A stretch of 64,000 nt of DNA from Bacteroidota bacterium (GTDB taxonomy: Bacteria; Bacteroidota; Ignavibacteria; Palsa-1295): assembly GCA_018266755.1 (NCBI GenBank), contig JAFDZW010000006.1, positions 1 through 64,000 on the forward strand. Direction: 5' to 3'. The translations under genes and the position numbers were made by a program. The notes under the pieces are model-generated. The model was given only the letters and a program-made list of their open reading frames with translations, searched no databases and was not told the DNA's origin. Each line of letters starts with the position of its first letter. Position 1 is the stretch's first letter. This document shows, one piece after another, positions 1,714-18,530 of this stretch.

Positions 1714-2847
1714 ATGCGAATCGAGATCATTGGTGGAGGCCCTGCTGGCCTGTACTTCGCAATACTAACAAAGCAACGCTTTCCTGATTGGAGTATCCGT
1801 GTCAGTGAACGAAACGGCCGTAACGACACATTCGGTTGGGGCGTTGTGTTTAGCGATCGAACATTAGAACATTTTCGCGAACACGATCCCATTTCCTATG
1901 CTACCCTTGCAGACGCGATAATTACATGGGAAGACGTCGATGTGGTCCATCAAGGAGTCCATACCCGTATTCATGGCAACAAGTTTTCCGGTATCTCGCG
2001 ACTAAAGATGCTCAACATCCTCAGTGACCGGGCCAAGTCACTTGGGATCGATGTCGAATTTAATAGTGATATTAAAGAACTCGGTGAACGCCGTTCTGCC
2101 GATCTTGTCGTGATCGCGGATGGCGTCAATAGCATTTTCCGAAAGCAATTCGCCGATTTCTTTCAACCATCCATTAGCGTCAGGCCAAATAAATACATCT
2201 GGTATGGCACACATCATTTGTTCGATGCACTCACACTTACATTTCATAAGAACGAGCACGGGATTTTTGCCTCCCATTCCTACAAGTTCGACGATACGAC
2301 GAGCACATTCGTCGTTGAATGCGATCCTGATTCGTGGAAGGCGGCCGGACTCGATACGATGACTGAGGAAGCATGCAGAACCTATCTCGAAGGTGTATTT
2401 GCGGATGATCTGCAAGGCGCCCGGTTACTTTCTAATCGTTCGCAGTGGATCAATTTCCAACTGATCACGAATCAGCACTGGGTACACGAGAATATGGTAA
2501 TCGTCGGTGACGTTGCGCACACAGCACACTTCTCTATCGGGAGCGGGACTAAGTTAGCCATGGAAAGCTCCATTGCTCTGTACCATGCGTTTGAGCAGAC
2601 TCAGAATGTGTCGGAAGCATTAACGCTGTTCGAGCGAACACGTAAACCGATTGTTGAAGAATACCAACAATATGCATACGATAGCCTGGTTCTCTTTGAA
2701 AATCTACACGATGTGATAGACCTATCCCCTCTTGAAATGGCATATCGGATGATGACACGAAGCAAGCGCCTGGACCACGAGAGGCTTCGCAAGCGAGATC
2801 CACAATTTATTGCAGCAGTTGAGCAACTACGTAAAGAGGAGCGCTAA
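1714..2847 (+). CDS. FAD-dependent monooxygenase, salicylyl-CoA/anthraniloyl-CoA hydroxylase-like
   Basis: 377 residues. A Rossmann FAD-binding start is visible as I-I-G-G-G-P-A-G-L (5-13), and the second FAD motif of class-A flavin monooxygenases, V-G-D-V-A-H-T-A-H-F-S-I-G-S-G, lies near residue 264. The phrase G-W-G-V-V-F-S-D near residue 40 and the overall length resemble the monooxygenase half of salicylyl-CoA 5-hydroxylase and anthraniloyl-CoA monooxygenase. The second, old-yellow-enzyme-like half of those fusions is absent. The gene sits 6 nt after the ATP-grasp ligase, with no aromatic-degradation or CoA-ligase genes beside it, so the substrate is unknown. Its 3' end overlaps by 4 nt the stop of the convergent gene at 2844. 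Confidence 0.8.
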   Translation: MRIEIIGGGPAGLYFAILTKQRFPDWSIRVSERNGRNDTFGWGVVFSDRTLEHFREHDPISYATLADAIITWEDVDVVHQGVHTRIHGNKFSGISRLKMLNILSDRAKSLGIDVEFNSDIKELGERRSADLVVIADGVNSIFRKQFADFFQPSISVRPNKYIWYGTHHLFDALTLTFHKNEHGIFASHSYKFDDTTSTFVVECDPDSWKAAGLDTMTEEACRTYLEGVFADDLQGARLLSNRSQWINFQLITNQHWVHENMVIVGDVAHTAHFSIGSGTKLAMESSIALYHAFEQTQNVSEALTLFERTRKPIVEEYQQYAYDSLVLFENLHDVIDLSPLEMAYRMMTRSKRLDHERLRKRDPQFIAAVEQLRKEER

Positions 2848-5800
2848 TTCAATTTAAGCATCTTCATATAGGAGTCTGCCTTCAGAACCACTGCCGTTCC
2901 GCTTGACGTATTCTGAGCCCATTGCATCGTCACATTTCCTGATGTGCTGGAGTTTTGTACCCATCCCTGGAAATGAATCAGAGTCGCTGCACTTGTAGTT
3001 ATGGAAATAGATTTTCCCACGCCGGAGCTGCTTAAGGTTCGAGATTCTTCCGTGGTTGTCGCGTCTTCCACTCTTCCAGTTAACCATATTCTCAATGTCG
3101 CTCCGGAAGGGACTGTAAATGCAATTTTTATATCTGGTGTTGTGCTCGCGGATGTTGCAATTAATTCACCTGACACTTCCCACGTTTCGTTCGCACCAAT
3201 GGCAAGAGACAGATCATTATCGTTGGTAAGAGTCGCTGAGTTTGCAATGGACTGGTCGGCAGATTTGATTGCATATTCTGGCGCAGTGCCCGTTCCCGAC
3301 GAGGTTGACCAACCGAGTGATACGTTATAGGGCCCGCTCCCCGATACCGAGGATGCTGATAACACTTGACCGGCTGACGGTTGTGATGTCGGAAGTGTAT
3401 AGTTTATGGTTGTCGTTCCCTGTGCACCGGCTTTAATCGAACTCACGCCACTCGATGTGCCTTGTAGCATCAATGAACTTGCCGTTGCATTGTTGTTCGA
3501 GAGCAGTAGATTCCCATTTCGCGCTTCAATAAGTTGGGATGGAGTTGTCAAGCCTATGCCGATATTGTTATTTCCCAATATTCGCATTGCTTCACTTAAC
3601 GTCCCGGAATTTACGGTTGAGAACGTGAGGGCTCCTGTTCGACTCGTATGATTTACACTCGTCCACACACCTGCCACTTGGGCCATTTGTTGATTCAGTG
3701 TTGTCGAGTCCTCAGCTTTGAAATCGATTGCCGAGCCAAATCCGGCAACCGGTCTGCCGGTAGATGCACTTTGTGCATTAATGACCGGTATGATACTATT
3801 TGTCGACGAACTCGTCATACGTACCGTTAACCGAGTATCAGGAGTAGGGACCCCGGTTGCATTATCGTTACCTATACCGACGTTTCCTCCCGCAAAGATG
3901 GACAAATATTCGGAATCGGAAGATCCGGATCGTCGGCGAAACGTCATATGTTCACCGTAACCACCGCCTGTGCCCGTATTCGCTACACCCGGCGTACCGG
4001 TGGACATGACGTCCCACCATTGATTCGCCGAATTCCCTTGATTGTCGTTCGTTCCACCCACCAATTCGATTGCAGGGTCGGTGCCGCCAGCATTGGAATT
4101 GAAGCGCCACACACGAAGGACTGCATTCTGATCGATCATATTAAACACGCGGTTTAGGTATGTCGGTACACTATTAAGTCGTGCCGTCGTCATCATATCT
4201 CCGTATGCAAAGCGCCCCGAACCACTTGAGAATGTAGTGGTGGTCGCGCCAGGTCCCAGCAGTTCATTACCGCTAAAGTCGATCATCATTCGTGTGTTTG
4301 GGCCACCCGAACCGGTGACAAACCGAACATTCGTATTGTCAATCGTACCCAAGAAGTTTGTCACATTATCAACAAGGCCGGAATTACCGGTAGTCAGCCA
4401 TGCGCTCGAACCTACCGATGCGGCATAAGAAATCCATCGGGTATCCGTACCGCTATAAATAAAGTTTGCCGTACCACCTGCCGGGATCACCAACGAGACT
4501 CCGGTACCGGTGATCACACGATTTGCAGCCACACTACTGGTACTCTGGTTTGCAACCGTCATCGTCTGAGACGTTGCATTATAAATTTGCAGATGTTTGC
4601 CATTCGCCCCACCGGCGATACCGGTGATCGTAAATCCTGCTGCTGCATTGGAGATTCTAATGAAGGACGTCTGGTTGTTTGACCCGTCGAAATTGACATC
4701 GTTCATTGTCGACGTTGTCGCTGTGGTATAGCTATATTCTCTGGTTGCCAGATCTTTCGCGATATCCACAGCAGTGTTCGGAGTAGTACCCACGTTGATT
4801 CCTAACCGCTTATTCGTATTATCCCAATAGAGAGCGGCATCATCCATTAACTGCGATGTCACGCCCGGTCCCGGCCCCCAGAACGCAACACGGGTTGCTG
4901 TACCGGTACCAGTCACCGTCCCTCCGCTCGCTACCCAACTAAGTGTACCACCGGTAGTTGAAGACAGCACATAGCCTGACGAAACAGGAAGCGAGGTAGG
5001 TAAAGTATATGTAATATTTGTCGCACCCTGTGCACCTGCCTTGAATGCTGTAATCCCAGTGCTTGTCCCTTGAAATTGTAATTGCGATGCAGTAGCAGTG
5101 CTATTCGAAAGTAAGAGATTTGCATTCTTTACCTCGAGTCCTTGTGTGGGTGTTGTGGTTCCGATCCCGACACTACCGGTAAATAACGCAGCGTAATCTT
5201 TTGAGCCGCCAGTCGCACTCACACTCAAACCGGTTGCAGTACCGGTGCCTGTTGCCGCCGCCGAGATTGTAAGCCCTGTCGCGTTACGGTTCGTGGCTCC
5301 ACCAGTTGCCGTAATCACTGCACCGGCAGCGTCAGCATCGTTCGCCGAAGCGCTATACGCCACGTTGAATAAGTTATCCGTGCGCGTGAGGGACAAATTC
5401 TGCGGAGTCGTCACGTCGTAGTTGACGAAATAGCCGCTCAACGGCGATACCAATGTCGTGTAGGTACGCTTCGTCAAGTCCCCATTCGCATCTGCAATCA
5501 CAAAACCATCCGTGGATGACAACGCGGTGGCGCCATCGGCACCGGAAAGTGCATTAAAACGAATGTTCAGATCTCCCGAATTACCCCCCACCTGCAAGAG
5601 TCGACCGCTCGTTGGCGTCAGGCCAATGCCAAGCTCTCCGGCCGGTGACAGGCGCATCTTTTCTGCATTGTTTGTATAGAATTTAATCGGTTGTGACGAC
5701 ACAGTATTGGTAGTCCCGATCACTAACGGCTGTGCATCGGTCGTCCCCAGGAAATTACCTGTCGTACCGTTATAGGCGGTCGTACCGGAATTACCGCTTA

Positions 5801-7634
5801 ATGACCAGAAGCTTGCGTTGATCGTTGCAAGGTCATTGATCGAATTCACAAACCATCTCGAGTCCGTCGGACTATATGTCAAATTTGCACTACCGTTCGG
5901 AGGAACCGTCAGGTTTCCTCCAGTGCCGGAGACAATCCTGTTCGCCGCAACACTCGATGCACTTTGGTTTGCCAGGATCAAATTCTTTGTTGTCGCATTG
6001 TAGAGTGTAATCAGTTTCCCATTCTGTCCACCCCCGATTCCGGTCAGTGTAAAATCCGCGGTTGCATTCCCCACACGGACATAGCTCGTCAGATTTCCGA
6101 CGCCATCAAAATTTACATCATTGATCGTACCGCTCAACGATGTTGTGTAGTTATATTCGCGGGTTGCAAAATCAGCGGCAACGTCAAGTGACACGTTCGG
6201 CGCTGACGTCCCAAGACCGAGTTTGCCCGAAGACGACAAGCGCATCCGTTCAGAATTGTTAGTAAAAAACTCGATTGGTTGCGGGGTCGCTGTGTTCGTT
6301 GTGGCAATGACGAGCGGCTGGGTGTTCGTCGTACCAAGAAAATTACCTGTTGTACCGTTATATCCTGTAGTGATTGAGTTTCCAGTAAGATTCCAATAAT
6401 TACCACTCAACAGTGTCGAGGCATCTGCCCATGAAAGCGAGCTTGTCGCTCCTCCGCTTGAAATCAGTACTTGGCTTGCAGTTGGAGCGGTTATCGGCAG
6501 TGTATAGGATAGATTTGCCGTCTGTGCACCCGAAACAAACGAGCTTGAGAATGTTCCGGAGGGATTCTGCAGACTAAGTTGACTAGCCGTTCCACCGTTC
6601 GACAATACATTGATATTTCCTATCGCAGCGATTGCTGTATTTGATGCACCGCCGGTAGCACTCACACTCAGTCCGGTCGATGTGCCGCTTCCTGTAGCTG
6701 TCGTGGTTATGGTGAGGCCCGTGGCGCTACGATTCGTCGCTCCGCCGGCAGACGTGATTACTGCTCCAGCAGCATTTGCATCATTTGCACTTGCACCGTA
6801 TGACACGTTAAATAAATTGTCGGTACGTGTAACAGCAACATTCTGAGTTGAAGTCACATCATATTTTACGAAACTGCTTGAAAGCGGGATATTCAGAAGT
6901 GAAATATCTCGCTTCGTTAGATCGCCGTTTACATCGGCAAAGACAAGACCGTCATTCGTACTAATCGCAGTGAATACATTCGAACCGGAAAGCGAGTTCA
7001 GACGAACGTCCGCCGTCCCTGCCGTCCCTGCAACATGAAGAGTGCGTCCTGCGGTTGGAGTGAGGCCGATGCCCAATTCTCCGCCGGAAGTCAGACGCAT
7101 GACTTCCGTATTGTTCGTATAAAATTCGATTGGCTGCGGGGTAGTCGTATTCGTCGTGGCAATAATGAGCGGCTGCGTGTTGGTAGTACCGATGAAACTA
7201 CCGGTCGTCCCATTATAGGCTGTAGTAATGGCATTGCCGGTCAGCGCCCAGTAATTGCCACTCAAGACGCTGGCCGGATCGCTCCAGGTCGGGACAAGGT
7301 TCGAGCCGCTAAGCTGTAGTGTAAGGATGTTCCCTGACGCTACACCGCCTGTATTGGTCCACCCGAGTTGACCGCTGCCAATCCCATAGAGCAACGATGC
7401 AGATGTCGTCGATGGGTTGGAAGTCGGAGGAAGCAGAAGTGTGTAGCTGAGCGGGTTAGTGCCAGTGAGAATCGTAATGATATTTCCATTTGCATTGGAG
7501 ATCCTCACCCCACGCTGCAAACTTGCCTGACCATATACACGAGCTGATCCCACCGCAAGCACGAATAGCACTATGGCCATTCGTAGTGCGGTGCCGACGG
7601 GAGCCGGGGGTGATATGGTTTCGGGGAATCTCAT
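2844..7634 (-). CDS. Very long exported repeat protein, tail-fibre/adhesin-like (1596 aa)
   Basis: An exported, Ser/Thr/Gly/Asn-rich beta protein. The Met at 7634 gives a signal peptide whose core is M-A-I-V-L-F-V-L-A-V-G, cleaved near V-Y-G-Q-A; the upstream extension to 7694 would run into the previous gene and is rejected. The body is built of imperfect repeats. A unit with G-T-T-N-T-Q-P-L-V-I-A-T-T-N-T and T-N-N-x-E-x-M-R-L-S occurs three to four times, and a second block (A-T-R-E-Y-x-Y-T-T ... N-D-V-N-F-D-G ... N-Q-S-x-S-S-V-A-A-N-R) occurs twice. L-S-Y-T-L-P-type motifs recur. The style resembles phage tail fibres and FCB surface fibre proteins. The C-terminus, ending Y-M-K-M-L-K-L-N, differs from its three neighbours. 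No T9SS sorting domain is visible, so its export route is open. Function unknown. Confidence 0.75.
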   Translation of the reverse strand: MRFPETISPPAPVGTALRMAIVLFVLAVGSARVYGQASLQRGVRISNANGNIITILTGTNPLSYTLLLPPTSNPSTTSASLLYGIGSGQLGWTNTGGVASGNILTLQLSGSNLVPTWSDPASVLSGNYWALTGNAITTAYNGTTGSFIGTTNTQPLIIATTNTTTPQPIEFYTNNTEVMRLTSGGELGIGLTPTAGRTLHVAGTAGTADVRLNSLSGSNVFTAISTNDGLVFADVNGDLTKRDISLLNIPLSSSFVKYDVTSTQNVAVTRTDNLFNVSYGASANDANAAGAVITSAGGATNRSATGLTITTTATGSGTSTGLSVSATGGASNTAIAAIGNINVLSNGGTASQLSLQNPSGTFSSSFVSGAQTANLSYTLPITAPTASQVLISSGGATSSLSWADASTLLSGNYWNLTGNSITTGYNGTTGNFLGTTNTQPLVIATTNTATPQPIEFFTNNSERMRLSSSGKLGLGTSAPNVSLDVAADFATREYNYTTSLSGTINDVNFDGVGNLTSYVRVGNATADFTLTGIGGGQNGKLITLYNATTKNLILANQSASSVAANRIVSGTGGNLTVPPNGSANLTYSPTDSRWFVNSINDLATINASFWSLSGNSGTTAYNGTTGNFLGTTDAQPLVIGTTNTVSSQPIKFYTNNAEKMRLSPAGELGIGLTPTSGRLLQVGGNSGDLNIRFNALSGADGATALSSTDGFVIADANGDLTKRTYTTLVSPLSGYFVNYDVTTPQNLSLTRTDNLFNVAYSASANDADAAGAVITATGGATNRNATGLTISAAATGTGTATGLSVSATGGSKDYAALFTGSVGIGTTTPTQGLEVKNANLLLSNSTATASQLQFQGTSTGITAFKAGAQGATNITYTLPTSLPVSSGYVLSSTTGGTLSWVASGGTVTGTGTATRVAFWGPGPGVTSQLMDDAALYWDNTNKRLGINVGTTPNTAVDIAKDLATREYSYTTATTSTMNDVNFDGSNNQTSFIRISNAAAGFTITGIAGGANGKHLQIYNATSQTMTVANQSTSSVAANRVITGTGVSLVIPAGGTANFIYSGTDTRWISYAASVGSSAWLTTGNSGLVDNVTNFLGTIDNTNVRFVTGSGGPNTRMMIDFSGNELLGPGATTTTFSSGSGRFAYGDMMTTARLNSVPTYLNRVFNMIDQNAVLRVWRFNSNAGGTDPAIELVGGTNDNQGNSANQWWDVMSTGTPGVANTGTGGGYGEHMTFRRRSGSSDSEYLSIFAGGNVGIGNDNATGVPTPDTRLTVRMTSSSTNSIIPVINAQSASTGRPVAGFGSAIDFKAEDSTTLNQQMAQVAGVWTSVNHTSRTGALTFSTVNSGTLSEAMRILGNNNIGIGLTTPSQLIEARNGNLLLSNNNATASSLMLQGTSSGVSSIKAGAQGTTTINYTLPTSQPSAGQVLSASSVSGSGPYNVSLGWSTSSGTGTAPEYAIKSADQSIANSATLTNDNDLSLAIGANETWEVSGELIATSASTTPDIKIAFTVPSGATLRIWLTGRVEDATTTEESRTLSSSGVGKSISITTSAATLIHFQGWVQNSSTSGNVTMQWAQNTSSGTAVVLKADSYMKMLKLN

Positions 7635-7669
7635 TCTACCAAATATACGCTCACAACAGACGGCATCCG

Positions 7670-8431
7670 TTACGGAACATTGACGATGATCCAATTAATA
7701 TTTTCGCCGGATGGGATCTCGTTCGACGCTTCCACAAAAAACATATTCTTTTCGTAGTCGATCTTCGTAATTGAGCAGAGCACCGTGCCTATATTGGCCG
7801 AGTGCATCATGTGAACAGAAGCCGAAATCATGGAATTCGGCGTGATCTGAAAATTTCCGGGCACAACGGCGAAGCGATATCGCTTCGATCCGAAGCCCTG
7901 CGCCGGAATGAAGCCAGAGCGAATGACCGTCGAATTTGTCTTCCCCCTCTTCTTCACCGGGTGGATCAAATTCCCTTGGTCGTCGTATTCACGCATGCGC
8001 TGAGATGCATCATGAACGACTGTCGCTGAATCCCCCTGGATGATCTCCTTCCCTGCGTGAATCTGTACTTCATCATAATGCTCACTGGCACTATCGAAGA
8101 GAAAGAGTGTGTCGTTCTCCCTGGGTTTGAACTCCGCGTAGAATCCGGGCGCCATGTTCGCGTTATTCCCACGATCAAGCTCGTAGATCGTGACCTTCGG
8201 TCTCGAATGCTCCGGTGGTGTCAGTTCTTCGCCTGCCGCATAGACAAGAGGCAGAACTCGTCGTTCGGTGTACGCCGCCTTCGCCGCGTCCGGATCAGGA
8301 GCGGTAAAGGTTTTCCTCGGCTGCGGTACACGTGCTGCCGTATCCTGCTGAGCGGAAACCACGCCGGCAGAACACAACAGAATGCATGCTATCGCAACGA
8401 TCACCCATCTTCGGTCAGCAAACTCGAACAC
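7670..8431 (-). CDS. Exported protein with the cluster's shared C-terminal beta-domain
   Basis: About 253 residues from a GTG at 8431, with a hydrophobic segment (W-V-I-V-A-I-A-C-I-L-L-C-S-A-G-V-V) and likely signal cleavage after V-S-A. The longest frame starts with ATG at 8515, but that ATG is the last base pair of a 10-bp hairpin that looks like the terminator of the upstream gene, so an internal start is more likely. The final 70 residues (V-V-P-G-N-F-Q-I-T-P ... F-F-V-E-A-S-N-E-I-P ... I-N-W-I-I-V-N-V-P) align by eye with the ends of the proteins at 8541 and 11364. The middle is unknown. It lies 35 nt before the 1596-residue gene, probably in one transcription unit. Confidence 0.65.
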   Translation of the reverse strand: MFEFADRRWVIVAIACILLCSAGVVSAQQDTAARVPQPRKTFTAPDPDAAKAAYTERRVLPLVYAAGEELTPPEHSRPKVTIYELDRGNNANMAPGFYAEFKPRENDTLFLFDSASEHYDEVQIHAGKEIIQGDSATVVHDASQRMREYDDQGNLIHPVKKRGKTNSTVIRSGFIPAQGFGSKRYRFAVVPGNFQITPNSMISASVHMMHSANIGTVLCSITKIDYEKNMFFVEASNEIPSGENINWIIVNVP

Positions 8432-8482
8432 GATCGCTGGGTTATTCGTGGGGAGACTGTAGAACAACACAGAAACGAACGG

Positions 8483-8515
8483 ATGCGCCGGCCTCTCCCC
8501 AGACTGCCGGCGCAT
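8483..8515 (-). terminator. Hairpin after the repeat-protein gene
   Basis: A perfect 10-bp stem (8483-8492 with 8506-8515), 13-nt loop, about 26 bases past the stop of the minus-strand gene at 8541. Downstream on the minus strand the sequence is T-containing but has no strict T-run, so termination may be partial and allow read-through into the next genes. Confidence 0.55.
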
Positions 8516-8540
8516 TTCCCATTCGTTAATGCACCATCAA

Positions 8541-11303
8541 TTACGGATTGATGATGACATAGTTGATGAACGACGTAGCACCCACCGGGTTATCCGACGC
8601 TTCGATATCGAACGAGTTCGAACCCACGTTCGTCACCTGTACCGCGACGGTACCGGCGCTTGCATGGTTCTCGATCGACACCGTGATCGATGCACCGGAG
8701 GTGATCGTCTGGCCCGCAGGCAGAGTGATCGTCTGAATGTAATTCGTCCACGCGACATGGCCCTTCAGGGTATTGTTGTTACCAATAGACTTGATCACGT
8801 TACCCGCAGCATCCAACGTAAGGTACAACGCCGGATTGTCGTCACGCGACAACTGGTTCGTGCGTGTCATGCGAACGTTACCCGTTGCCGAGTCAGCCCA
8901 CATGAAGTTGTTGATGCCCGTTGCAGCATTGAACGTAGAACCCTGAATATTCAGGTTACCGGTCGTACCGGTGTTGACGTTCGTATTTACGTTGCTGGTG
9001 CTGTTACCGAGATTGACATTACCGCTCGTACCCTCGAAGTTGAGGTTATGACCATTCATGCTCACGAAACGGTCACCGAGAATCGGAGCGCCGCCCGTTG
9101 CGGACGAACCAAGTTCGACCGTGTTGCCATTCGCTACCGTCAAACCGTTATCGGCATTGACGAGTGAGCTAAGAGCACGGACGTGTACATGGTTGGTCGC
9201 GTCGAGGATCAGCATTGTCGTGTCGGTCGTCGTCGTCAGGTTATTGATGACCACCGTTCCTGTTACACCCGGATCGATTTTGACATTCTGCACCGACGTA
9301 CCGTCACCGATATTGAAACTGCCCGCACCGTCAAAGTTCAACGCGTTGCCGTTCAATGTGACGAAACTGTTGCGCAACAAATTTGCGCCACCCGTTGCTG
9401 CAGAACCGAGTTCGACAGTCGGGGTACCTGCGACGTTCGTCAGCAGCAAACCGTTTCGTGCGCCGACCAGATTGTTCATCGAACGAGTATGAACGTTGCC
9501 GTTCTCGTCGGTGATGAGGATGGTCGTGTCGGTCGAAGCGGTCAGGCTCTTGAAGGTCAAGTTGCCACCCGTACCGTGATCGAGCGTGATGTTCTGTACT
9601 GCCGCACCTCCGCCAACATTGAAGCTGCCGGATCCCTCGAAATTGAGGGCATGCGTGCTCAGGTTAACGAAGCGATCGCCCAACAAGAGCGCGCCACCGG
9701 TTGCAGCAGAACCGAGTTCAACGACGTTATTGCTCGTGATCGTCAAACCGTTATCGGCGCTGACAAGTGAGCTCAGTGCACGTGTATGAACATTTCCTGA
9801 TCCGTCAACGATTACAAGCGTGGTATCGGTCGTAGCCGTGAGGCTCTTCAACGTCAACTGGCCTCCTGTGCCATGATCGATCGTAATGTTCTGGACGCCT
9901 GCTGCGCTTCCGATATTGACATTACCACTACCGTCGAAATTGAGGTCATGGCCAGCCAATGTGACGAAGCTGTTACGCGTAAGGTTTGCACCTGCCGTCG
10001 CAGCAGAGCCGAGTTCAACCGTGCTCGTGCCGCTGATGTTGTTTACGATAAGACCGTTATCTGCACTGACGAGCGAGTTCATCGAACGCGTATGTACGTT
10101 TCCGGTACCGTCAGTGATCAGGATAGTCGTGTCGGTGGTTGCGGTAAGGCTCTTGAGTGTAAGCTGTCCGGTCGCACCGTGATCGAGAGTGATGTTCTGC
10201 GAGTTCGTACCATCGCCGATCGAAAAGTTACCTGCACCCTCGAATGTGAGGTCGTGGCCACTGAGTGATACGAAGCGATTGCCGAGCAACGGAGCACCAC
10301 CAGTAGCGCCCGAACCGAGTTCGACGACGTTATTGCTTGTAATCGTCAAACCGTTATCGGCGCTGACAAGTGACGTCAAGGCACGTGTATGCACGTTGCC
10401 GGTACCGTCGATGATCAACAATGTCGTATCGGTCGTCGCGGTGAGGTTCTTGATATTCAAGTTACCGCCAGTTCCGACGTCAACACTGACGTTGAACTGT
10501 GCCGAACCGTTACCGAGGTTGAAGTTGGCATTGCTGCCGCTGGTAAATGCGACATTGAAGCCAGCCTGGTCGATCGACGTATTCTTTATGAGTGTCCCAC
10601 CCCATTGAATGAGCGAATCACCAACACGGGTCAAGCCGTTGTTCACATCGAACATTCCGCCCAACATATCACGCCACACTGGAGCGGTAATTCCCGTCGA
10701 AGTGAGAACCTGACGGTTCGTACCGACAGCAGTGAACTGATAGGCTGTTCCATCGCCATACGCAACAGCGCCTGCCGTAGGCACGGCATTGCTATTCGTA
10801 CCACCACGATCAATATGCAGAAGGCTGACATTGTCATATCCTGTTGCATCGTTGATACCTTGGATCAAGCGATTATTCAAACCGCTGTGCCCAACGTTCA
10901 CCAATGTGGAATCTACAGGCCCCTTGATATCACCATCGAGTGTGGTCAGCACCGAAGGATCAACCCACTGTAGTCCGTTACCGGCTGTGTTCACTTGCAA
11001 GAGGAAGTGAGATTGAGCCGGACCGAAGGCATCAGAACGCACGATCTGGTTCTGGTCATTGAGCCAGAGCGAGTAGTTCTGTCCAGCCGTCGGTGTCGGC
11101 GCCTGGTCGAGTTGGTAGAAGTTTGTCGATGCACCTGCGCCGGTGATCGCGCGCAACTGCACGTAATTCGGAGTCGTCCCTCCGGTCGAGAGCCTGAGCT
11201 GTTGGGTAACCAACGACGGCACTTGAGCGGAAACGACCCCTGCCAGTCCGACAACCGCTACCACGGCTGCCAGCTTGGCACTGAGGAGTGTGATTCGTTT
11301 CAT
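8541..11303 (-). CDS. Exported repeat protein with alternating 100-residue repeats (920 aa)
   Basis: Begins with a clear signal peptide (M-K-R-I-T-L-L-S-A-K-L ... V-V-S-A-Q). After an N-terminal region typical of FCB fibre-like proteins comes an array of five repeats of about 100 residues with a half unit before it. Each carries T-A-T-T-D-T-T, G-N-V-H-T-R, S-A-D-N-G-L, V-E-L-G-S-x-A-T-G-G-A and L-x-F-x-G-x-G. The repeats alternate between a form with R-A-L-S-S-L and G-D-R-F-V and a form with R-S-M-N-S-L and R-N-S-F-V. The last 65 residues (I-T-L-P-A-G-Q-T-I ... Y-V-I-I-N-P) are the C-terminal domain shared with two neighbours. Surface fibre or adhesin is an inference; no enzyme motif is seen. 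Confidence 0.75.
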   Translation of the reverse strand: MKRITLLSAKLAAVVAVVGLAGVVSAQVPSLVTQQLRLSTGGTTPNYVQLRAITGAGASTNFYQLDQAPTPTAGQNYSLWLNDQNQIVRSDAFGPAQSHFLLQVNTAGNGLQWVDPSVLTTLDGDIKGPVDSTLVNVGHSGLNNRLIQGINDATGYDNVSLLHIDRGGTNSNAVPTAGAVAYGDGTAYQFTAVGTNRQVLTSTGITAPVWRDMLGGMFDVNNGLTRVGDSLIQWGGTLIKNTSIDQAGFNVAFTSGSNANFNLGNGSAQFNVSVDVGTGGNLNIKNLTATTDTTLLIIDGTGNVHTRALTSLVSADNGLTITSNNVVELGSGATGGAPLLGNRFVSLSGHDLTFEGAGNFSIGDGTNSQNITLDHGATGQLTLKSLTATTDTTILITDGTGNVHTRSMNSLVSADNGLIVNNISGTSTVELGSAATAGANLTRNSFVTLAGHDLNFDGSGNVNIGSAAGVQNITIDHGTGGQLTLKSLTATTDTTLVIVDGSGNVHTRALSSLVSADNGLTITSNNVVELGSAATGGALLLGDRFVNLSTHALNFEGSGSFNVGGGAAVQNITLDHGTGGNLTFKSLTASTDTTILITDENGNVHTRSMNNLVGARNGLLLTNVAGTPTVELGSAATGGANLLRNSFVTLNGNALNFDGAGSFNIGDGTSVQNVKIDPGVTGTVVINNLTTTTDTTMLILDATNHVHVRALSSLVNADNGLTVANGNTVELGSSATGGAPILGDRFVSMNGHNLNFEGTSGNVNLGNSTSNVNTNVNTGTTGNLNIQGSTFNAATGINNFMWADSATGNVRMTRTNQLSRDDNPALYLTLDAAGNVIKSIGNNNTLKGHVAWTNYIQTITLPAGQTITSGASITVSIENHASAGTVAVQVTNVGSNSFDIEASDNPVGATSFINYVIINP
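9116..10445 (-). repeat. Tandem ~300-bp coding repeats in an A/B alternation (602-bp super-repeat)
   Basis: Equivalent segments start near 9116, 9414, 9717, 10016 and 10319. Copies 1, 3 and 5 resemble each other more than copies 2 and 4 do, at DNA and protein level, so the true duplicated unit appears to be an A+B pair of about 602 bp. The repeats lie inside the 920-residue protein gene. They could change copy number by recombination. Confidence 0.8.
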
Positions 11304-11322
11304 TGTTGTATGGGTTAGTGAT

Positions 11323-11340
11323 TAATTCTAGCTAGAATTA
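11323..11340. promoter_or_regulatory. Perfect 18-bp palindrome upstream of the repeat-protein gene
   Basis: TAATTCTAGCTAGAATTA is its own reverse complement. It lies 20 bp before the ATG at 11303, in the 60-bp gap between two genes of the same strand. It could be an operator for a dimeric regulator or a small mRNA hairpin; neither can be shown from the sequence. Confidence 0.35.
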
Positions 11341-11363
11341 GTGTCGTATCAACACAATCATTG

Positions 11364-12929
11364 TTATGGATTCACGACGAGATACGTCAGGAATCCGGTG
11401 TTTGTAGGATACGATGCGGAAAATTGCACCGTAAACTGATTCGTCGCAACGTTCGTGACCATATAGCCCACGATGTTCTCGAATCCTTGTGCATCGAACT
11501 GGGAAATAGTCACGCTCGAATTTGCACTGCAACCGACCGTCGGCGGCAGCGATACGGTGAACGTCGTGGCTCCCTGCGGGATGGCAATGCGCCCCGCATA
11601 GGAGTTACCCCCCACGGTTGCTCCTCGTAACGAATTCGATTCGATCGTTCCTGTTCCGGTAAGGCGCAGCGACGAACCGTCGCCCACCTTCATATCTTGG
11701 TTCTGATTAATACCACTCGTTACCTGATTCCACGGAATGGTCACCGCCGTGGGGATAACGTTGACCCAGCTCATGACACCGTTCGGATCGGATGTCAGCA
11801 ATGCGTCGGTCACTGCAAGTCGCGGCGGCAATGAATACGTCAGGTCATTCGCTTGATTGACCGCCTTAAAGGCAGAATAATGCAACCCCTGGGGATCGCC
11901 AATGCGCAATTCGCTCGAGTTACTCAGGAAGACGTTGCCTGCAACATCGAGTCGCGCTTGCGGCGACGTCGTACCGATACCGATACGGGTACCGTCGTTA
12001 TACAAAAATGTGTTCGAGACCCACTGCGTACCGTCATGACGCAGAGTCGCACCCTGCGTACCGGCGGGAAGGCCGACGAGTGTCGTCGAAATAACATTAT
12101 TCCCTTGAGCGTCGGTGGTAATCACAATACCGGTCCCCGGCTTGATCGCTGTCGTATCGTCACCGGCCGGGAGCCACTTCGTACCGTTCCACTTGAGAAC
12201 CTGCCCCGTCAAGGCACCCATTTGATTAATCTTCTCACCGGTCACAGCCTGATCGGTGATCTTTTCTGTTGTGACAGCGTTGCGCGCAAGTTTGCGCGTC
12301 GAGATCGACGTATCGGCCACTCCGATCGTCACTGTCGGGCCACGGGGCTGGATGATATCGATCGTTCCGTCAAGATTTTGAATGGTGCGAATACCCTGGG
12401 GGTTGGCGGAGATCGTGATTACTCGCCCGTTCTGCACGACGCTCGTGGTCGAATCGCCGATGATACGGATCGGACCGTCCACCTCGTTAATACTTGTGAC
12501 GACACCTTGGGCATCTGCGGAAACGGAACTTGCACGATCTGCAGTCTGTGCATGCAGCGCATACGGCACAGCCGTGAGCGCCGTTCGTGGCGTCATCTCT
12601 GCCCCGCCATCGACACTTACTCCAAGCCAATATTGATTTCCGAAGTCGATAGAATTAGGAATAGCACCGGTTGCACCAATAATGAGATTGAATAGTCCTT
12701 TGAGGGTATTGGTCGGTTGTGTTTCGGCGAAGAGCTCCGTGCCACCAGTCGGCGCATCGTATAGGGCGATCTTAATCACGTGTTGCCCGTCCGAGATGGG
12801 ATTCCCATTCGGCGACACAATCAGACCCTGGTAGCTGATCTGTCGGGGAATCTGGGCAAATACAGAATTCGAGCAGAATGCTGCCAATACTATCACGCTG
12901 CCAACAATGCACCACAATCCTTTTAGCAT
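11364..12929 (-). CDS. Exported fibre-like protein with shared C-terminal beta-domain (521 aa)
   Basis: The Met at 12929 gives a normal signal peptide (M-L-K-G-L-W ... V-F-A-Q). It is followed by the Q-I-S-Y-Q-G-L-I ... G-N-P-I-S-D-G module common at the start of secreted FCB fibre-like proteins, with A-L-Y-D-A-P-T-G-G and P-Y-A-L-H-A-Q further on. The central region contains a collagen-free stalk-like stretch and an R-L-D-V-A-G-N-V-F-L-S-N-S segment like those preceding tail-fibre repeats. The last 70 residues end T-Y-L-V-V-N-P and match the C-terminal domain of the proteins at 8541 and 7670. The frame runs upstream to 13112, but the extra residues do not look coding. First gene of the four-gene minus-strand block. 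Function unknown. Confidence 0.75.
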   Translation of the reverse strand: MLKGLWCIVGSVIVLAAFCSNSVFAQIPRQISYQGLIVSPNGNPISDGQHVIKIALYDAPTGGTELFAETQPTNTLKGLFNLIIGATGAIPNSIDFGNQYWLGVSVDGGAEMTPRTALTAVPYALHAQTADRASSVSADAQGVVTSINEVDGPIRIIGDSTTSVVQNGRVITISANPQGIRTIQNLDGTIDIIQPRGPTVTIGVADTSISTRKLARNAVTTEKITDQAVTGEKINQMGALTGQVLKWNGTKWLPAGDDTTAIKPGTGIVITTDAQGNNVISTTLVGLPAGTQGATLRHDGTQWVSNTFLYNDGTRIGIGTTSPQARLDVAGNVFLSNSSELRIGDPQGLHYSAFKAVNQANDLTYSLPPRLAVTDALLTSDPNGVMSWVNVIPTAVTIPWNQVTSGINQNQDMKVGDGSSLRLTGTGTIESNSLRGATVGGNSYAGRIAIPQGATTFTVSLPPTVGCSANSSVTISQFDAQGFENIVGYMVTNVATNQFTVQFSASYPTNTGFLTYLVVNP

Positions 12930-13321: not shown

Positions 13322-15403
13322 CTATTGTATCTGGGGACTTGCGACAAAGATTGTCACCGTTCGACAGTAAAAACGCCCCTCTGGAACATCGTTATCGTAT
13401 AAAAGTTCTGAACTGCCAATCCCTTGGATCGTCGCATTCGGCGTGCCGATCGCAGCAGAAGTCGCTTTCGCGCGTGATCCAGCGAGGTTACGGTTATACT
13501 CCATCGTGCCGATACGGTCGGCGTATCCTTTGATCGTAATTAGATCGGTGGGCTGGATTCGCGACTTCACGAAATCTGCAATACGCTGGTTTGCGCCGCT
13601 GAGCGCAGACTTGCCGAAATCGAACAGGATCAAGTTGTACGTCGAAAACACCGTGTCGGCAATATGCTGCTCACGTTTCTTCGCGAGCGTAAGCTGATAC
13701 ACCGGCACGGAATCGGTTGGGGTTGTCACCGTCTGACCGACCTGATCGGTGGCGGTCATTCCGTACTTAAAGGCACGGAGGTTTGCAAGCGTGCGCTGCT
13801 TTTCCTTCTCCATCTTCCAGTCAATGTGATCGGGCACCGTATTCGTGCCATCGTACTTCTTTAGTTCATGGATTTGATCACCAGCCGTCACCTTCCAACT
13901 TGCAACACCCGCTTGCGCCTGTACGAGCGGCTTGAAGCGAACAATCGGCGGACGAGGTACACGCAAGGTGTCCACGGTCAACACCGGCGCGAGCACTTCC
14001 CAATCGTTACTGGTGATCTCCACACGACGATTTTCTGCAATACCATCCTCTGTCGTTTCGCCTGATGCTTTCTCGGGCAGATTGCGATATTCGATTGCAA
14101 CACGAGATGGATCGAGCTTCCAGACATTGAGGAAGTAATCGCGAACCGTTTCTGCACGACGCTTCGACAAGCCGGTATTCCCCTTCTCGTCACGCATATC
14201 CTGATTACAGCCAATGAGCGTGAGCTTTGCCTTCGGATGCTCGAGCATACGCCTACCGACGATGTTCATGATCTGGTAGTAGAGCTGCAGCGTCTCATAG
14301 TTAAAGAGCTTATCCACGAAGAAGTTATTCGTTTCTTCGGGTGTCAGCGTAGTATACTCCGGACGCATGTCGCTACTATTCTCCGCAAAGAATACATAGT
14401 TCAATAGCGGACGAAGCTGTGTCGAAATGAACTCCTCGATCGTAAACTTCAACGGGATTTCATTGCCATCTTTATCCACGCCAAAGACCTGCAAATTTGC
14501 TGCAATCTTCGGCTTCTTGTCCTCCGGCGGCGGCGGTGGGGGTGGCGGTGGCGGAGGAGGAGGCGGAGGAGGAGGCGGAATCACACGTACAGGGATCGGC
14601 GTATATCCTACGCCGACACCTAAGCGATACGATGTCGCATTCCAATTATACCCTTGCACAAGAGGCGTAAAGCGCAGAGCAAATGATGCTTCGGGATATG
14701 CATTGAGCGACCCAGATGAATCGAGTGGAAGCCGGTAGCGCAACAACGCTTGAGCACCGAAAATGAACGATGCCGCAGAGGGTATTTTCCCACCAACGAC
14801 ATTCCGTTGACGCGTATGATTTCCCGAATCATTGAATGTCGCACTCGAAGGATCGATTAAATCCTCGTGCTGGTCAAAGCTTTTTTGAATTAATGGACCA
14901 CCGAACACCCCAACACCGAAGTTGATCTTTGGTGTGATTCGAAACATCAATGACGGCTCCAGATTGATCGATGCGAGATGCGAGACGAGCGTATTACGTA
15001 CCGTCGCGAGTGAACCTTGGGTGGTGTGTCCGTTGCCGAGATCGAGATTCACCGGTATCTGTGCGTCTTCGTTATCGGTCGCGCTGAAGTTGTCGTAGCG
15101 GAGTTTGATGTCGACTGACATGAACTGCGTCAGGGGCAACACATAGAACCCGCCGATGTTCAGTCCAAGACCGCTGCCTCCGCGGAATTCCCAACAGCAA
15201 TTTGGGATGCCTGGAAGGGATGGGAAAGACGAAACATGCTTCGCAAATCCCGCGCCGAGCATACCGCCGTAGATCGGAAGCACCGCGCGCTCGCTATCGG
15301 AAAGCGGCTGCGAATAGACGGCTGTGCATGCAAGTGCCGTCAACACGAACGACACAAGAATGCCCCTCACCGCACGAACGAGAGTATTATGATGAAACGT
15401 CAC
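13322..15403 (-). CDS. OmpA-family outer-membrane protein with PNCC barrel and two OmpA domains (693 aa)
   Basis: Signal peptide at residues 1-32, then a barrel-like region of about 240 residues opening with P-G-I-P-N-C-C (64-70), a run of 18 prolines near residue 275, and two OmpA-like peptidoglycan-binding segments. The first (about 340-460) contains N-S-S-D-M-R-P and R-R-A-E-T-V-R-D-Y-F. The second (about 575-690) contains L-F-D-F-G-K-S-A-L, G-Y-A-D-R-I-G-T and N-R-N-L-A-G-S-R-A. OmpA domains anchor the outer membrane to peptidoglycan. The start lies 24 nt after the T9SS cargo gene at 15428, implying co-transcription. The barrel region aligns by eye with the partial protein at 63494. The proline tract is encoded by a GGC/GGA-type repeat at 14525-14579 that may vary in length. 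Confidence 0.88.
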   Translation of the reverse strand: MTFHHNTLVRAVRGILVSFVLTALACTAVYSQPLSDSERAVLPIYGGMLGAGFAKHVSSFPSLPGIPNCCWEFRGGSGLGLNIGGFYVLPLTQFMSVDIKLRYDNFSATDNEDAQIPVNLDLGNGHTTQGSLATVRNTLVSHLASINLEPSLMFRITPKINFGVGVFGGPLIQKSFDQHEDLIDPSSATFNDSGNHTRQRNVVGGKIPSAASFIFGAQALLRYRLPLDSSGSLNAYPEASFALRFTPLVQGYNWNATSYRLGVGVGYTPIPVRVIPPPPPPPPPPPPPPPPPPEDKKPKIAANLQVFGVDKDGNEIPLKFTIEEFISTQLRPLLNYVFFAENSSDMRPEYTTLTPEETNNFFVDKLFNYETLQLYYQIMNIVGRRMLEHPKAKLTLIGCNQDMRDEKGNTGLSKRRAETVRDYFLNVWKLDPSRVAIEYRNLPEKASGETTEDGIAENRRVEITSNDWEVLAPVLTVDTLRVPRPPIVRFKPLVQAQAGVASWKVTAGDQIHELKKYDGTNTVPDHIDWKMEKEKQRTLANLRAFKYGMTATDQVGQTVTTPTDSVPVYQLTLAKKREQHIADTVFSTYNLILFDFGKSALSGANQRIADFVKSRIQPTDLITIKGYADRIGTMEYNRNLAGSRAKATSAAIGTPNATIQGIGSSELLYDNDVPEGRFYCRTVTIFVASPQIQ

Positions 15404-15427: not shown

Positions 15428-18346
15428 TTACCGTTCAATGGTCAGAATGCGTGAGAAGAGCTGTGAGGGGGTCTGCAGCACGTACAAATAATTACCGCGG
15501 GGCAATTCGCGAAGATCGAGATCAAACGAATAATGGCCGTGCTTATAATCGCCGCTCATTACATCTCGGATCTTTCGTCCCACAAGATCTGTGAGGAAGA
15601 GATTGGTATGTCCATCCTCAATAAGATCGACGTCGATTTGGGCGTATGAGGCGGTTGGGTTCGGCCTGCTCTGCGTAATACCGACATTGCCACTTTGGCT
15701 GAAGAGCCGCTGGCCACCTGCCGTGCAGACGTTAACCTTCAGTAAGCCGCTGTAGCGCAGGATAACCGCCTTCTTCCCGGAAGTGAAATCGAATGCGTCG
15801 ATCGACACGACCGTCTCCGCCGAATCGCCCCAGTACACATTACATGGGATCGGTAGGAGTGTACCAACGTCCAACGTTTGAGGTCGGAAGCCGGATAATG
15901 TTAACGTTCGTATATCCCCTGTTATCGTCGATGGTATCGATTGGTCTTCCGGCGCGAGCAATGTCTTATTGAACGACATGGTAGCAACCCATGACGTGTC
16001 TCCACTTGGTAATAGATTTCGAGATGACACGATCTTTAGAGGAAAGACGACACGATCTCCGGGCGATGCCGTAATCGTATCCGTCGCAACATATACGAGC
16101 GGTGTCGCAAGGTCACGAATAATATGAATCGTTGTCGTCGAACTGCATCCATTCGAATCGACGACGGCAACGCTAAAGTAGCCAGAGTCAAATACCGTTA
16201 ATGTATCTCCGATCTTTCCCGTGTTCCATAGATAACTATTGAGGTTACCGCCAACGACGAGGGTGTCCACACCACCGGAGTCCGGCAGGTTCGGCGGGGA
16301 TGCTGTAATATTAATATTCGGGAGCGGATTCACCAACACACTGACGGTGTCAGAGCTCATCGCACAGCCGCCGGGAATGGTGACCATGCAATTGTACTTG
16401 CCTGTCGTAAATACTTTCGTCGTCGCTGTGGTATCGCCATTATTCCATTTATAGGCAAGGAAAGTATTTGGGACCGAGAGCGTCATGCTATCTCCTTGGC
16501 ACAACTGTCCACCTCCTTGCACAAGCGGCTTCTTTGCCCAATGAATAATGACATGCTCGGTCGTAGTCCCAATACACGGTGCGCCGATCGTTGTTGCGTC
16601 AATTTGGATCACACCATCGGTCGTGTCGTTCCATTGGACATACACCGTATCGCTCCCCTGACCAGCGGTGACACTACCCCCGATGATACTCCATTGATAG
16701 GTCGAATTCGGAGCATTCGTCAGGTAATACTTCTCAATATCGTCACCACAAACTTCGAAGGATCCGTTGATGACAGGGGTCGGGCGGAAGTTCACTTTTA
16801 CATCGACCGTATCGGTAAACGTACAGCCACGCATATCTTGGTACGTAGCGATATATTGGATTGATGTATCGGGTCGCGCCTTCGGCATCTGGACGGTTGG
16901 ATTAGACAGGAAATATGTCGGTGCCCAACTGAAGTTTTGTCCACCATTGATACCGATAACAATGGTATCCCCGAGGCAAATTGTATCGTATCTGCTAATC
17001 GCTCTGGGATATGTAAAGAGTGTCTTGCTTTCTGCTAAGACAAGTCCGGTCTGCGAGATGCCGGGCTGGCCATCCGTGGCGCCATAACTTGTTCCGTAGC
17101 AAGATACTAAGGATGAGACTTCAACTCCTGATTTACCGGCTGTAACTGTAGCAGCAAGCGGGGTTGCGGCACTGGTAATCACGCGTCCGCCTCCGCCACC
17201 CCCGCCAGGTGCGAAACAGTAGTCTTTAAGTTTGAATGCATCGTTATCGCCGCCTTTACCGCCACGAGCATAGATAGTAAGATTACCGACGATCTTCTGT
17301 GCGTCGATCGCTACAGTACCACCACCACCGCCGCCGCCTGCTCCATCGACACCTGCAAGGAGTGCGCTGTCTCCGTCCACTTGGATCGTCCCTTTGTTTT
17401 TCACGACGATTGCCCCTGCGCGGATAATCACCAAGCCGCCGCCAGCAGCTCCGTTCGATCCGGTTCCGTCATTCTGGTGTCCGCCGCCGCCGCCGCCGCC
17501 GAGCGTCAATAATCCTTTATGTCCGACATAGTCAAGCGGAATAGCACCCAACCCGCCATTATCCAAAATACCTACCTGTGACGTTTGTTTACCGCCTTGC
17601 CCACCGGCGCCACCATTGCCACCGCCACCGCCGCCGCCATTTTGGTCGTTTCCACCACCGCCGCCATGAGCAAGTGGGCCACGACCGGCCTCGAAGCCAT
17701 AGATATACGCAGCGATTGACTCGCCCTTTTTACCGCCGTCGTAGGAAGCTTCTGAATAATAATATCCAAGACGGCCAGGGGTTGCTCGGCGCCCCGAGTA
17801 ATCGCCGCCCTTAAATCCACGGCCCGTCGCATCGATTGTCCCCCCGTCGAAGGTCAACGTATCGGCAACTTCCATGACCGTAATACCACCTTCAGTGCCG
17901 CTCCAGGCTTTGGGCCGGACCGTATCCTGGATTGTCGCATTTGTATAGACCGCCACACGGACAAGCTGAATACTTCCCGTTGCATCGTAGGATTGCATCA
18001 ACTTGTTTTTTAATGCTACCGTCAGACCGTCGACACCCGAGACATTACAAAATTCGTAGTGAGCAGCATTTCCATAGTCAAGGACTTTCCCAAAATTCGC
18101 AGTATTGGTCGTATCGACTTTAGCTCCCTTCATTTCGATGAGCAACACACGATCCCCAACATTAAAGATTGAGCTGTTGGTAACGAGTACGGTATTATGG
18201 CAGGTATCGATACTCAGTACCTGTGAAAAGTCATTGATGTCTCCGGAGATCGTCTGCGCATGGCTAACTGGGGTAACGCATAGCAACATGCTTGCGACAA
18301 GCGCAAGGAAATACAGACCATCGATCGATCGCTTCATAGGCTTCAT
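15428..18346 (-). CDS. T9SS-exported glycine-rich protein with PKD-like and cohesin-like regions (972 aa)
   Basis: The Met at 18346 gives a signal peptide (K-P-M-K-R-S ... V-S-H-A-Q); Mets at 18400, 18358 and 18337 are alternatives. In order: an N-terminal beta region, a long glycine-rich segment with many G-G-G-G-G runs (about residues 200-400), Ig/PKD-like stretches rich in D-T-V and V-Q-W-N-D, a cohesin-like domain (G-D-R-V-V-F-P-L ... F-N-K-T-L-L-A-P-E), a C-T-A-G-G-Q-R-L motif, R-P-N-P, and a type-A sorting domain with L-I-E-D-G, H-G-H, V-L-Q-T-P and final T-I-E-R. It should be delivered to the cell surface by T9SS. The OmpA-like PNCC protein follows after 24 nt. The actual ligand or activity is unknown. 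Confidence 0.82.
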   Translation of the reverse strand: MKPMKRSIDGLYFLALVASMLLCVTPVSHAQTISGDINDFSQVLSIDTCHNTVLVTNSSIFNVGDRVLLIEMKGAKVDTTNTANFGKVLDYGNAAHYEFCNVSGVDGLTVALKNKLMQSYDATGSIQLVRVAVYTNATIQDTVRPKAWSGTEGGITVMEVADTLTFDGGTIDATGRGFKGGDYSGRRATPGRLGYYYSEASYDGGKKGESIAAYIYGFEAGRGPLAHGGGGGNDQNGGGGGGGNGGAGGQGGKQTSQVGILDNGGLGAIPLDYVGHKGLLTLGGGGGGGHQNDGTGSNGAAGGGLVIIRAGAIVVKNKGTIQVDGDSALLAGVDGAGGGGGGGTVAIDAQKIVGNLTIYARGGKGGDNDAFKLKDYCFAPGGGGGGGRVITSAATPLAATVTAGKSGVEVSSLVSCYGTSYGATDGQPGISQTGLVLAESKTLFTYPRAISRYDTICLGDTIVIGINGGQNFSWAPTYFLSNPTVQMPKARPDTSIQYIATYQDMRGCTFTDTVDVKVNFRPTPVINGSFEVCGDDIEKYYLTNAPNSTYQWSIIGGSVTAGQGSDTVYVQWNDTTDGVIQIDATTIGAPCIGTTTEHVIIHWAKKPLVQGGGQLCQGDSMTLSVPNTFLAYKWNNGDTTATTKVFTTGKYNCMVTIPGGCAMSSDTVSVLVNPLPNINITASPPNLPDSGGVDTLVVGGNLNSYLWNTGKIGDTLTVFDSGYFSVAVVDSNGCSSTTTIHIIRDLATPLVYVATDTITASPGDRVVFPLKIVSSRNLLPSGDTSWVATMSFNKTLLAPEDQSIPSTITGDIRTLTLSGFRPQTLDVGTLLPIPCNVYWGDSAETVVSIDAFDFTSGKKAVILRYSGLLKVNVCTAGGQRLFSQSGNVGITQSRPNPTASYAQIDVDLIEDGHTNLFLTDLVGRKIRDVMSGDYKHGHYSFDLDLRELPRGNYLYVLQTPSQLFSRILTIER

Positions 18347-18530
18347 TGCAAACTGCATTTCGCCCGCTCTTTTTTCGATTCGCTTGTCCAAACTACGCAA
18401 GCGTGAGGGGGCTACAACTCACTAGGCTTGGCTTCTGCCATTAAATTCGAGCTTAAATATACGAACAAAATGCGCGATTCCAAACAGAAATCGCGCCGAG
18501 CTAAGATAGATTAGAAAATATTACCGGTAA

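Follow-up and report, generated by a model that had tools for sequence, protein, structure and literature searches.

What does a bacterium gain from four adjacent genes for exported, fibre-like proteins of very different length, three of which end in the same domain? This question is raised by a block in a 64,000-nucleotide stretch of contig JAFDZW010000006.1 (hereafter the window) from a Bacteroidota bacterium of the class Ignavibacteria (assembly GCA_018266755.1). The block runs on the minus strand from 12929 to 2844, gene 1 being read first and gene 4 last, and its ORFs encode 582, 920, 281 and 1616 aa in this order (Table 1). The genes are separated by gaps of 60 and 25 nt, the ORFs of genes 3 and 4 overlap, and about 390 nt lie between gene 1 and an OmpA-like gene upstream. 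By inspection, each of the four proteins starts with a hydrophobic, signal-like segment whose last two residues are AQ or GQ, in agreement with a preliminary description of this DNA, which had assigned signal peptides to all four. The same description had seen no T9SS domain, and searches with Pfam and NCBIfam likewise found neither Por_Secre_tail nor CHU_C in the four proteins, so that T9SS cargo was rejected as an explanation. An S74 domain is also absent from the four genes. Trimeric autotransporter adhesins were rejected as well, since Pfam found no YadA-type C-terminal membrane anchor in the four proteins and their C-termini are formed by the shared domain or by a phage-like tip.

Table 1. 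Coordinates of the block, its domains and upstream neighbours in the window, and of small T9SS-sorted proteins at other loci (L numbers).
Feature	Position	Strand	Description
Gene 1	11364..12929	-	582-aa ORF from 13112, probably starting at the ATG at 12929 (521 aa); signal peptide, MAT_N-like N-terminal domain, beta-prism-type stalk, shared C-terminal knob
MAT_N-like domain of gene 1	12660..12878	-	About residues 81-150 of the 582-aa ORF; placed at 12663-12875 in a second search
Knob of gene 1	11367..11636	-	90 aa, beta-sandwich, pLDDT 86, tailspike-like
Gene 2	8541..11303	-	920 aa; signal peptide, conserved N-terminal region, repeat stalk, shared C-terminal knob
Knob of gene 2	8544..8792	-	C-terminal
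Gene 3	7670..8515	-	281 aa; signal peptide, small beta domain, shared C-terminal knob; without stalk repeats
Knob of gene 3	7673..7939	-	C-terminal
Gene 4	2844..7634	-	About 1596 aa from ATG; 1616-aa ORF from TTG at 7694; long mosaic fibre, conserved N-terminal module, capping-loop motifs, different tip
Gene 4 tip	2847..3278	-	144 aa; related to phrog_24062
OmpA-like protein	13322..15403	-	693 aa, with two stretches of OmpA domain; immediately upstream of the block
AgmC-like protein	15428..18400	-	990 aa; low-score T9SS sorting domain (Pfam/NCBIfam)
Small T9SS-sorted protein	L077:5050-5787		
Small T9SS-sorted protein	L079:5776-6456		
Small T9SS-sorted protein	L081:8387-9085		
Small T9SS-sorted protein	L083:5410-6246		

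The 582-, 920- and 281-residue ORFs have one C-terminal beta-sandwich of about 85 residues in common, referred to here as the knob. Local alignments of the C-termini were scored against 500 shuffled sequences. The 582 and 920 ends matched with a Z of 10.5 and the 920 and 281 ends with a Z of 7.9 (0/500 shuffles in both cases), whereas the 582 and 281 ends showed no significant similarity (Z 0.7). Profile comparison gave the same picture, with probabilities of 96% for the 582-type against the 920-type, 79% for the 920-type against the 281-type and 1% for the 582-type against the 281-type. Since sequence did not connect the 582 and 281 proteins directly, their relationship was deduced from the 920 protein, which links to both, and from structure. 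Thus, the C-terminus that had been proposed to be common to all three proteins is supported by sequence for the two pairs that include the 920 protein, but for the pair 582 and 281 by structure only. The 1616-residue protein matched none of the other three C-termini significantly in the same shuffle test, confirming that its end is different. A tblastn search of the knob against phages gave no match, and a PDB sequence search returned nothing convincing.

Structure prediction for the gene 1 knob, based on 11 sequences, yielded a seven-strand beta-sandwich (pLDDT 86). The whole-protein model of gene 3 reached a mean pLDDT of 63 and was weak outside the C-terminal half; the strand order of this C-terminal part is the same as in the gene 1 knob, the two models having been predicted independently. 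The best structural match of the gene 1 knob was the end of the tailspike of cyanophage Pam1 (70 aligned residues, 1.9 A), with a Z of 8.1 that lies at the edge of the range reached by unrelated beta-sandwiches. For the gene 3 knob the same tailspike gave a Z of 5.0 at 2.4 A. Both models align to a single segment of it, residues 688-758 of 7eea, as well as to the ends of other tailspikes and of R-pyocin fibres, and the structural likeness of the 582 and 281 C-termini implied by the preliminary description was hence recovered. Next in rank for the gene 1 knob were the R-pyocin fibre, the AP22 fibre and the Sf6, phi297 and LKA1 tailspikes, and in a viral structure library nearly all named matches were phage proteins, many of them tail-fibre proteins. 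In its predicted fold and its terminal position the knob is therefore like the ends of phage tailspikes and fibres (Pam1, Sf6, phi297, LKA1, R-pyocin); unlike them, the proteins of the block are chromosomally encoded with signal peptides and are not virion parts, and identity is about 20% or less. The match between the predicted knob and the tailspikes is a resemblance of fold at modest score and is not proof of descent.

The bodies that carry these ends differ from gene to gene. The N-terminus of gene 1 matched NF053851, the NCBIfam model of the mosaic adhesive trimer (MAT) fibres of Bdellovibrio, over 70 residues with 33.3 bits (E 3.9e-8), below the cut-off of 60, and its orthologues likewise match this model under the cut-off; genes 2-4 gave no NF053851 match. 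About a dozen proteins of the same genome (loci L029-L039) have a MAT_N-like N-terminus with differing C-termini. The gene 1 stalk contains one IGIGTTSPQARL capping-loop motif, and the capping-loop motifs of genes 1 and 4 exceed those of shuffled sequences. In gene 2, the stalk has a super-period of 201 residues made of two units of about 100 aa. At the DNA level these repeats have a period of 603 nt and are 66-71% identical, indicating that they are old. Tandem Repeats Finder reported no repeats in the block because the best period, 603 nt, exceeds its limit. One weak PDB match of the stalk, to 9eg4 orf16, was not reproduced with a single sequence. Altogether, the earlier view of exported, fibre-like proteins with phage-tail-fibre character and stalks of differing length is supported.

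Linkage of the four genes, which the preliminary description had named as a test, holds in relatives, where the genes are not scattered. Their order is kept in relatives G001 and G002, and two contig fragments of a third relative, G006, are consistent with it. In one of the first two, a second species of the genus, the four proteins measure 576, 519, 252 and at least 527 aa; the other belongs to a different genus, and there the lengths are 530, 655, 243 and at least 275 aa. Conservation extends over the whole of gene 1 (62-64% identity in the relatives). The gene 2 orthologues, of 519 and 655 aa, are conserved at both ends, and the repeat stalk between them varies in length and sequence among relatives. 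Orthologues of gene 3 are 45-57% identical overall, the knob being the most conserved part (70-74%) and the remainder far less conserved; in a scan of species genomes, relatives of gene 3 were found only in the three relatives carrying the block. The AgmC-like and OmpA-like genes upstream are also kept in place, in the same and in another genus, at 44-65% identity. In G006, a fibre protein with an S74 chaperone (L072:3-1631) precedes the gene 1 orthologue, in place of the OmpA-like gene.

Gene 4 behaves differently from its companions. Across operons the N-termini of its family are related, while the tips belong to four groups without relationship to each other. The second genes of operons L027 and L074, for example, are 68% identical, and the tips of the two operons differ. 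The tip of the long fourth protein is thus exchanged between related operons; the exchange was seen among these and not in this exact operon, since in G001 and G002 gene 4 is cut off by the end of the contig. The tip of gene 4 itself is related, at 27-33% identity, to Streptomyces-phage proteins annotated as hypothetical or, in one case, as a minor tail protein, and the gene of the Streptomyces-phage relative lies between those for the major capsid and the head-to-tail adaptor. Interchange, which had been suggested for a set of adhesins, is therefore found for the gene 4 tip but not for the knob proteins, each of which has its own orthologue at the corresponding place in another genus.

Two further three-gene operons are present in the same genome, encoding proteins of 266, 393 and 740 aa and of 256, 393 and 1346 aa, and more paralogous operons occur in relatives. 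In a paralogous set, a short protein with the knob is joined by a second one that carries the knob or a diverged form of it, and a long fibre is encoded nearby. The knob domain was detected in 14 of 61 relatives and in 14 of 395 genomes across the phylum, 13 of the latter 14 belonging to the same class (own genome included). In the loci read, it forms the C-terminal end of the protein, barring a few short or contig-edge matches. All 16 knob-bearing proteins whose bodies were read have fibre-like bodies, most of them enriched in G, S, T, N and A, and these bodies contain repeats or motifs of the capping-loop or YTLP type. In one other family, a small protein of 226-278 aa whose T9SS sorting domain scores weakly lies inside or beside the related operons (Table 1). 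The genome, of 3.5 Mb, contains about 140 T9SS sorting domains above cut-off. Near one paralogous operon, inspection revealed a tyrosine-recombinase-like gene (L026:448-1674). The paralogous operons, the MAT_N-like domain of gene 1 and the conserved OmpA-like and AgmC-like neighbours had escaped the preliminary description.

In the MAT superfamily, a beta-rich N-terminal domain of about 130 aa follows the signal peptide, and the tip is an S74 chaperone or an alternative adhesive tip. Prey recognition by Bdellovibrio has been shown to use chimeric phage-like fibres. The MAT fibres of Bdellovibrio bacteriovorus combine a conserved N-terminal domain and trimeric beta-prism shafts with tips that are exchanged, and for one tip binding of prey glycans was shown (PMC10769870). 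The block shares with them the signal peptides, an N-terminal domain in gene 1 that is related below the family cut-off, capping-loop-like shaft motifs, phage-like tips, a conserved base with exchanged C-terminal tips and many copies per genome. Exchange of tips on a conserved base, which marks the MAT fibres, is seen both in the gene 4 family and among the MAT_N-like proteins of this genome. Unlike in Bdellovibrio, however, the genes form conserved multi-gene operons, the companions share one terminal cap, OmpA-like and AgmC-like genes adjoin, and the lineage has no known predatory lifestyle; moreover, the N-terminal match is confined to gene 1. The block is hence MAT-like by anatomy and is not filed as a MAT member, the domain model scoring below its cut-off. 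A literature search found no similar loci in Bacteroidota.

We consider it probable that the block is a MAT-like adhesion locus in which three constant, capped companions go with one long fibre whose tip is exchangeable. The proteins would be exported by Sec, would then pass through the outer membrane and would fold as intertwined trimers whose N-terminal ends keep them on the cell. Gene 1 would be held by its MAT_N-like base, gene 2 would provide a repeat stalk, and gene 3 would be nearly stalkless. The shared tailspike-type cap would lock and protect the ends of these three companions. In gene 4, the conserved N-terminus would hold the exchangeable tip, presenting it at the surface for adhesion to a surface glycan or a neighbouring cell. 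By analogy, the OmpA-like neighbour is a candidate anchor. TpgA is the OmpA-like partner of AtaA, the trimeric autotransporter adhesin of Acinetobacter, and as in that pair a long fibre here adjoins an OmpA-domain gene whose product may tie it to peptidoglycan. Unlike AtaA, the four proteins gave no Pfam match to an autotransporter anchor, and the OmpA-like protein, scoring 31 of 350 bits against the TpgA model, is not a TpgA.

The shared domain could instead be a sorting or docking signal that, like the C-terminal domains of T9SS, directs proteins across the outer membrane or onto a partner. With about 80 residues it forms a beta-sandwich, it is nearly always strictly C-terminal, and in gene 3 it is strongly conserved; the genome is rich in T9SS cargo. 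Yet its best structural matches are the ends of phage tailspikes and fibres, and gene 4 of the same operon has neither this domain nor a T9SS domain. The restriction of the domain to fibre-like bodies in the 16 cases read, together with its C-terminal position, speaks for the end of a fibre and against a general sorting signal, a role that we regard as improbable. The phage-like tip and knob could also point to part of a prophage or to a phage-derived particle such as a tail-like bacteriocin. All four proteins have signal peptides, however, the place of the block is conserved between genera, and no relatives of genes 1 and 3 were found in viral contigs. As its neighbours are ordinary chromosomal genes that are themselves conserved, this very remote prospect was rejected.

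How the four proteins relate to each other within a MAT-like locus is a separate matter. They could be independent adhesins that build separate fibres, each with its own ligand, a sub-case that is compatible with the MAT-like reading. Their stalks and lengths differ, about a dozen other MAT_N-like fibres are encoded in the genome, and the Bdellovibrio MAT fibres are described as single-protein trimers (PMC10769870). On the other hand, the fixed order and one-to-one orthology of the four genes across genera and the recurrence of analogous three-gene sets suggest a shared job, and we hold full independence to be a serious possibility that falls somewhat short of an even chance. More tentatively, and rather doubtfully, the proteins might assemble jointly into a hetero-complex in which the cap is an assembly interface and the three constant proteins form a base and shaft carrying the gene 4 fibre. 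If so, the cell would re-target one surface apparatus by swapping the end of a single gene, with a tip that is phage-derived.

For the lineage, the MAT_N-like repertoire and the capped-fibre operons suggest that this kind of adhesin design extends beyond predators, into a Bacteroidota/Ignavibacteriae lineage. The conserved companion genes are concrete candidates for the surface elements that hold such fibres. With its constant companions and changing tip, the block resembles a bacterial version of a phage trick, the swapping of tips to grip different surfaces.
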